The translations under genes were made by a program, and so were the position numbers. A stretch of 22,772 nt of DNA, from assembly GCA_026001145.1 (NCBI GenBank), contig BNZN01000012.1, positions 1-22,772 on the forward strand, in the 5' to 3' direction. Origin of the DNA: Clostridia bacterium (GTDB lineage: Bacteria > Bacillota > Clostridia > Oscillospirales > Ruminococcaceae). Below, piece after piece: positions 12,293 through 12,589 of the stretch. How positions within the stretch are numbered: position 1 is the stretch's first letter; every line of letters starts with the position of its first letter. Under the pieces are notes generated by a model. That model saw only the letters and a program-made list of their open reading frames with translations, did not search any database and was not told the origin of the DNA.

Positions 12293-12589
12293 ATGTCGCT
12301 TAAGCCTTGTGAAACGGCCAGAGTAATTAAAAGGCAAATCATAAAATATTCCGGAAAAATCGAAGAGGTACGAGTGTTTTCGGCTGTTAAGTTAACCGAA
12401 GAGCAATTGCAAAAAATGAAAAGTATGCTTGAAGACAAACTTAAAAAATCTGTTGCGATTGAAAACTTGGTGAATAAATCTTTGATCAGTGGAGTTGTTT
12501 TGAAATATGGGGACAGTTTGCTTGATGCAAGCTTTGAATCAGCTTTGAAAAATTTGAGGTTGCAGATAGCTGAAGTAAATTTGGGTTAA
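12293..12589 (+). CDS. Alpha-N-terminus/delta-C-terminus hybrid protein in the atp operon
   Basis: This 98-residue extra gene lies between atpH and atpA. Residues 1-24 align with the alpha subunit N-terminus (MSLKPCETARVIKRQIIKYS against MQLKPDEITKIIKDQIKNYS; about 14 of 24 identical). Residues 22-94 align without gaps to delta residues 102-174 (about 40 of 73 identical, including VKLTEEQLQ). The joint falls on the shared residues IE. The delta N-terminal domain is absent. The ATG at 12293 follows GGTGG; the stop is 21 bases before the atpA start. In known F-ATPases the alpha N-terminal helix binds delta's N-domain and the delta C-domain binds b, so this protein holds two stalk-binding parts. 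It could help assembly, compete with delta, or be a decaying by-product; the open, diverged frame favours use. Confidence 0.85.
   Translation: MSLKPCETARVIKRQIIKYSGKIEEVRVFSAVKLTEEQLQKMKSMLEDKLKKSVAIENLVNKSLISGVVLKYGDSLLDASFESALKNLRLQIAEVNLG
12356..12574 (+). repeat. Delta C-terminal segment, diverged second copy
   Basis: This is the partner of 11914-12132 and forms most of gene X. Divergence is spread along the segment with no stop or frame change, which is how a copy under some protein-level constraint looks. Confidence 0.85.

Follow-up and report, generated by a model that had tools for sequence, protein, structure and literature searches.

A hybrid of alpha and delta subunit parts is kept beside the full delta gene in the ATP synthase operon of one clostridial genus

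What is encoded by the 98-codon reading frame that lies between atpH and atpA in the F-type ATPase operon of this Clostridia bacterium, and is it a working gene or what is left of a duplication? The window, by which we mean the whole stretch of 22,772 nucleotides analysed here, contains a single operon of this type in the order a-c-b-delta-[hybrid]-alpha-gamma-beta-epsilon, where b, delta, the hybrid and alpha alone were named with Pfam; the other genes were named by eye and served as BLAST queries. The hybrid gene occupies positions 12293..12589 of the plus strand (98 codons and a stop, ATG start), as supported by Pfam, alignments and orthologues, and all other features given below for the window lie on the same strand. 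Upstream are atpF (11087..11596; Pfam), which encodes the single b subunit and the presumed partner of both delta C-terminal domains, and atpH (11611..12135), which encodes a complete, full-length delta of 174 aa (OSCP profile 3-172; trees) and is the presumed source of the C-terminal domain copy. Downstream is a complete atpA (12611..14116; Pfam, alignment to the hybrid), the presumed source of the N-terminal helix copy, for which a TTG start at 12590 is also open. The c subunit of the window (10763-11047) has Gln in its first helix and Glu-Thr-Thr in its second, a pattern that we take to resemble a sodium-type binding site.

Residues 23-94 of the hybrid (12359..12574) resemble the delta C-terminal domain (CTD), aligning to delta 103-174 without gaps and with 40/72 identical (E 2e-25), and the Pfam OSCP model (PF00213) matches residues 18-91 to profile positions 97-171 of 172 with 58.1 bits against a cut-off of 22.3. 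Because the match spans profile 97-171 alone, the hybrid holds only the C-terminal domain of OSCP; in the Pfam search positions 1-96, corresponding to the delta N-terminal domain, were unmatched. In known enzymes the delta CTD is the b-binding part and contacts the C-termini of the b dimer. Residues 1-22 (12293..12358) resemble the N-terminal helix of alpha: identity is 14/24 between residues 1-24 of both proteins, with none of 5000 shuffles scoring as well anywhere in alpha, and 15/36 between residues 1-36 of both (E 7e-6), and a low-confidence model has a helix at residues 5-20. Neither the nucleotide-binding nor the C-terminal domain of alpha was found by Pfam in the window hybrid, both being present in a fused form described below. 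Compared with delta/OSCP (PF00213), the C-terminal domain is common, whereas an alpha-like helix stands in place of the N-terminal domain. An earlier note on this DNA had proposed an alpha/delta hybrid between intact atpH and atpA, which is borne out by the alignments, Pfam and shuffles, and had given it a ribosome binding site of its own, for which a plausible Shine-Dalgarno candidate, GGTGG, was read from the sequence at 12283-12287, 5 nt 5' of the ATG, within a long spacer (12136..12292) that is partly conserved in a second genome of the genus, G001. No promoter or terminator exceeded chance in 9900-17000 when compared with shuffles.

The genus is represented by four genomes (G000, the window's own, and G001-G003), each with 0.7-0.9 Mb of sequence and the window's being 68% complete; going by isolate names, the MAGs of G001-G003 may come from termite guts. 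In all four the hybrid is open, adjoins a full delta (encoded in G001-G003 as in the window) and lies directly 5' of alpha, so that neither absence nor stops, either of which the earlier note would have read as decay, was found in these close relatives. Two further hybrids occur among database proteins (P0002, 91% identical, and P0004, 73%), known as protein sequences alone. For the closest pair, G000-G001, the NG86 estimate of dN/dS for the hybrid is 0.253 (95% bootstrap 0.13-0.46; 0/1000 replicates reach 1 and the largest is 0.70), with 0.35 from YN00 and 0.33 from LWL85. The NG86 values for delta and alpha in this pair are 0.16 and 0.05, hybrid residues 23-94 have 0.22 versus about 0.10 for the true delta CTD, and the helix part is the least changed (dN 0.019). 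Deeper pairs are near saturation, with hybrid NG86 values of 0.23-0.41, several other estimates that failed and a YN00 value of 0.836 for G001-G003. When neutral evolution was simulated at the observed dS, 9/2000 runs remained without stops, and protein identity averaged 0.32 (largest 0.51) compared with 0.74 observed. Twelve columns are invariant in an alignment of six hybrids and three deltas.

The hybrid gene is kept, as had been suggested, under weaker constraint than delta: it is open throughout the genus and in two homologues, and dN/dS in the closest pair is not near 1. A decaying or chance open reading frame is rejected by this conservation together with dN/dS. Separately, the first 25 nt of the gene are identical in G000 and G001, silent sites included (window 12293-12317, L028:6724-6748), and a start-region or RNA constraint on these 25 nt and the partly conserved spacer is possible from the sequences.

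The hybrid is lineage-specific rather than general to clostridia. A profile scan at E 1e-11, which could miss a much diverged copy, found it in 4/396 sampled family genomes, all of them members of the genus, and on this distribution we reject a general clostridial subunit. Position between atpH and atpA, which the earlier note had asked of all relatives, holds in the four genus genomes. Of 148 family genomes scanned for OSCP, two had a CTD-only match in a frame of at most 130 aa, and both belong to the genus. A scan of the contig database turned up five loci, of which three belong to the genus and two (L034, L035) match the CTD part only. The first search for relatives had returned L023, which is not an ATP synthase gene and which we take from its sequence to be a recombinase, and L024, which is part of a 671-aa delta-alpha fusion.

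The boundary between hybrid and alpha differs among the four genomes, the hybrid being a separate protein in three. In the window, a TAA stop (12587-12589) and 21 nt stand between hybrid and atpA, all in one frame (12587..12610); the two genes also share a frame in G002, where three stops in the spacer separate them, and their frames differ in G001. In G003 hybrid and alpha are continuous, forming a single 610-aa frame with full delta upstream, in which an alphaN-like helix is followed by the delta CTD, a linker of ~15 residues and a complete alpha. This fusion protein is deposited as alpha (P0009), and a protein search with its N-terminus matched only itself. An internal ATG is kept at the alpha start of G003, from which separate alpha could be produced besides the fusion.

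The helix part was compared with alpha across the genus. Identity to the genome's own alpha is 5/24 in G002 and 6/24 in G003, with 8 and 35 of 5000 shuffles as good, and the amphipathic moment of the helix gives no clear support (260, 219, 59 and 856 of 2000 shuffles as high for G000-G003). I8 and D14, each identical in all four genus alphas, are T/T/A/T and R/R/E/L in the hybrids, and K18 is present in 4/4 hybrids and in no alpha. Because I8 and D14 are lost, tight binding of the helix at alpha's own site on delta is doubtful, and the hybrid need not use that site; the suggestion of a delta competitor in the earlier note is weakened by this loss. Structure models were poor (AlphaFold, mean pLDDT 52.1 and 33.8) and were not used, and a Foldseek search with the first model returned nothing at E 0.001.

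A tandem duplication of the junction between the end of atpH and the start of atpA is the likely origin of the gene, judging from the genus with the nearest delta, which lacks it. In the profile scan of 396 family genomes, the nearest delta outside the hybrid genus belongs to a small-genome genus, g103, whose delta and alpha lie 31 nt apart with no hybrid (locus L062; in locus L061 alpha begins at 3781, after a delta that ends at 3749), which argues for the duplication. Further support comes from G002, which retains, 9 nt before its hybrid, a 13-base stretch equal to the piece just before alpha in L061, found once in each locus and in 0/200 shuffles of either. A single tandem duplication from mid-atpH to about codon 22 of atpA would yield delta, alphaN-deltaCTD and alpha in that order, unaided. 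In delta CTD trees, all twelve CTDs of the genus, from deltas and hybrids, form one group (97/92; 91/81 in a second tree), with the delta-alpha fusions outside it (97/95). Since the hybrids group with the genus's own delta and away from these fusions, transfer from chains of that type is unsupported. The trees neither show nor reject a single origin of the hybrids, as uniting all six gives p-AU of 0.236 and 0.134 in the two trees and the best trees do not unite them. Traits restricted to hybrids, namely K18 in 4/4 and the loss of I8 in all four, favour one origin.

Two rearranged delta chains match the hybrid profile. The first, 9jc1_I, is a delta-alpha chain (E 3.3e-12), presumably the engineered deltaDeltaN-alpha fusion of Bacillus PS3 FoF1; the second, weakly matching (E 0.00096), is the b-delta fusion subunit 9vkp_d, which is also a rearranged delta in an F-type stator but has delta fused to b and not to an alpha helix. 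According to PMC12229609, the b dimer and the N-termini of the three alphas are linked by delta, with one alpha N-terminus at its C-terminal region and the other two at its N-terminal region (likewise for E. coli in PMC5214741), and the delta N-domain is argued to be what keeps F1 to a single stalk. In the engineered PS3 enzyme of that work, deletion of the delta N-domain and joining of the CTD to alpha led to up to three stalks, with canonical binding of b2 by the fused CTD, an H+/ATP ratio of 5.8 and a cryo-EM average of only 1.26 stalks per molecule, and a natural fusion is named in Acidaminococcus fermentans (PMC12229609). With these fusions the hybrid has the N-domain-less delta CTD in common, which sits at the alpha N-terminus there and likewise in G003. 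It differs from the deltaDeltaN-alpha type (PMC12229609) in that the window hybrid ends at the stop at 12587-12589 and fusion to alpha is found in G003 only, that a full delta is also encoded in the genus and that an alpha-like helix precedes the CTD. The statement in the earlier note that no F-ATPase subunit of this form is described can be kept in part: among the top-listed open-access PMC papers we found no free-standing alphaN-deltaCTD accompanied by a full delta, but an N-domain-less delta CTD attached to alpha has been described (PMC12229609).

Detachment of the delta CTD is common among Clostridia. Nine of 148 family genomes had a CTD-only OSCP match in a frame of at least 500 aa, with alpha in the same chain in all nine (in one, G053, the OSCP match is below Pfam's cut-off), and a tenth delta CTD-alpha chain is cut by a contig end (L052, from G066). 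The delta CTD-alpha fusions without delta N-domain at L036, L037, L039-L043, L045 and L052 have no separate delta that could be found in the operon and are, from their sequences, candidates for natural multi-stalk enzymes; several genomes with such a fusion also match full delta elsewhere. In five more family genomes (L046-L050) alpha is joined to a delta that is complete or almost complete, and a match in G081 (280-aa frame, L044) was dropped, there being no recognisable F-ATPase operon. The 749-aa frame at L038:5400-7649 may be a triple stator fusion: by eye, its delta CTD and alpha follow a membrane helix and coil that resemble b, and a BLAST search of that locus with the window's b gave no separate b gene. 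In the class sample, 20/196 genomes list CTD-only matches in frames of at least 500 aa (one, L059, was opened), and 4/196 have separate delta CTD-only genes of 77-108 aa where delta would stand, between b and alpha (L055:5715-5951, L056:5807-6040, L057:5467-5736 and L058:5820-6146). Another delta match exists elsewhere in two of these four genomes, G171 and G185; in the latter, which is also the genome of L058, the delta frame at L060:5055-5867 has a long repetitive insert between two OSCP halves.

Like the hybrid, the genes at L055-L058 are separate and lie in the b-to-alpha interval, but they occupy the position of delta in operons where no other delta was found, and they lack an alpha-like lead, whereas the hybrid stands beside full delta. 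Across 13 loci with detached delta CTDs, a set that left out L038 and L059, no alpha-like lead before the CTD could be demonstrated. Four leads (L055, L056, L041 and L045) were too short to test and eight of the nine tested were near chance, the lowest counts being 26/300 for L036 and 37/300 for L043; the lead of L037 is weakly alpha-like (11/300 shuffles against the window's alpha, 100/300 against its own alpha region), which we count as chance among so many tests.

The reading that we prefer, held with about as much confidence as doubt, is that the hybrid is a retained, genus-specific extra b-docking stator subunit that works beside the normal delta. Its delta CTD part would bind the C-termini of the b dimer, as is expected because it holds the same CTD as the engineered enzyme of PMC12229609, and its helix would keep it at the F1 crown, either on delta or next to alpha. 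A place at the crown is suggested because the module is fused to alpha in G003, where the covalent tie would position it there. F1 would thereby gain an additional b-docking site next to that of the canonical delta, and the outcome could be either bracing of one stalk or admission of a second. The second stalk is left in doubt because a full delta persists with its N-domain, for which the one-stalk limit is argued (PMC12229609). The faster evolution of the hybrid than of the delta CTD counts against an extra stator subunit, as does poor conservation of the helix in G002 and G003.

It is rather unlikely, in our estimate, that the hybrid is instead an assembly factor or delta competitor, binding delta transiently through its helix or b through its CTD, setting the timing or number of stalks and being absent from the finished enzyme. 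A small protein that is separate in 3/4 genomes, has a start of its own after a long spacer and combines two partner-like parts with no catalytic part would suit such a role; as one chain with alpha in G003, however, it would stay in the enzyme, and without I8 and D14 its helix is a doubtful tight binder of delta. We consider it improbable that the hybrid is an alternative delta in a second enzyme form, in which complexes with the hybrid in place of canonical delta, and perhaps more than one stalk, would alternate with one-stalk complexes of full delta. It is favoured by the four class genomes in whose operon a free-standing delta CTD gene alone fills the delta position, together with the up to three stalks of the engineered N-domain-less form (PMC12229609), but an alpha-like lead is missing from all four genes (two leads are too short for the helix and two do not beat shuffles), and promoter-like sites no more frequent than in shuffles give no sign of separate expression. 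A slowly decaying duplication remnant, or a leader whose translation chiefly aids that of atpA, is quite improbable, for although faster evolution than the delta CTD, the frame shared with atpA in G000 and G002, fusion in G003 and the identical first 25 nt agree with it, the gene is open in six sequences, the bootstrap excludes a dN/dS of 1 in the closest pair, neutral simulations rarely stay open and twelve columns are invariant over hybrids and deltas.

Alongside an extra b-docking stator subunit, we entertain as a long shot a natural F-type ATPase whose number of stalks is mixed or can be switched: one b2 would sit on delta, more would dock via the hybrid and ions per ATP would be tuned by the hybrid-to-delta ratio; in G003 every alpha would then offer a further b2-docking site. 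ATP/ADP translocase (TLC) matches occur in 3/4 genus genomes, with two genes in the window's genome (G000:C5:26170-27639 and G000:C18:1777-3255) and none in G001, and a related clade with ATP/ADP translocase is described in PMC10579323 as putative energy parasites of gut protists. Such cells may use the enzyme to pump ions, and the number of ions moved per ATP would then matter differently.

To our knowledge, F-type ATP synthases are taken to hold a single peripheral stalk. That rule has been broken by an engineered delta CTD on alpha, and the same work asks whether this occurs naturally (PMC12229609). The genus described here keeps an extra delta CTD beside full delta, and one of its species has joined this CTD to alpha; it also illustrates how a new subunit of two parts can arise from a single tandem duplication. 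Should the hybrid prove to be part of the enzyme, this would be a natural way of adding b-docking sites, and the genus is a directly testable case for the evolution of stalk number.
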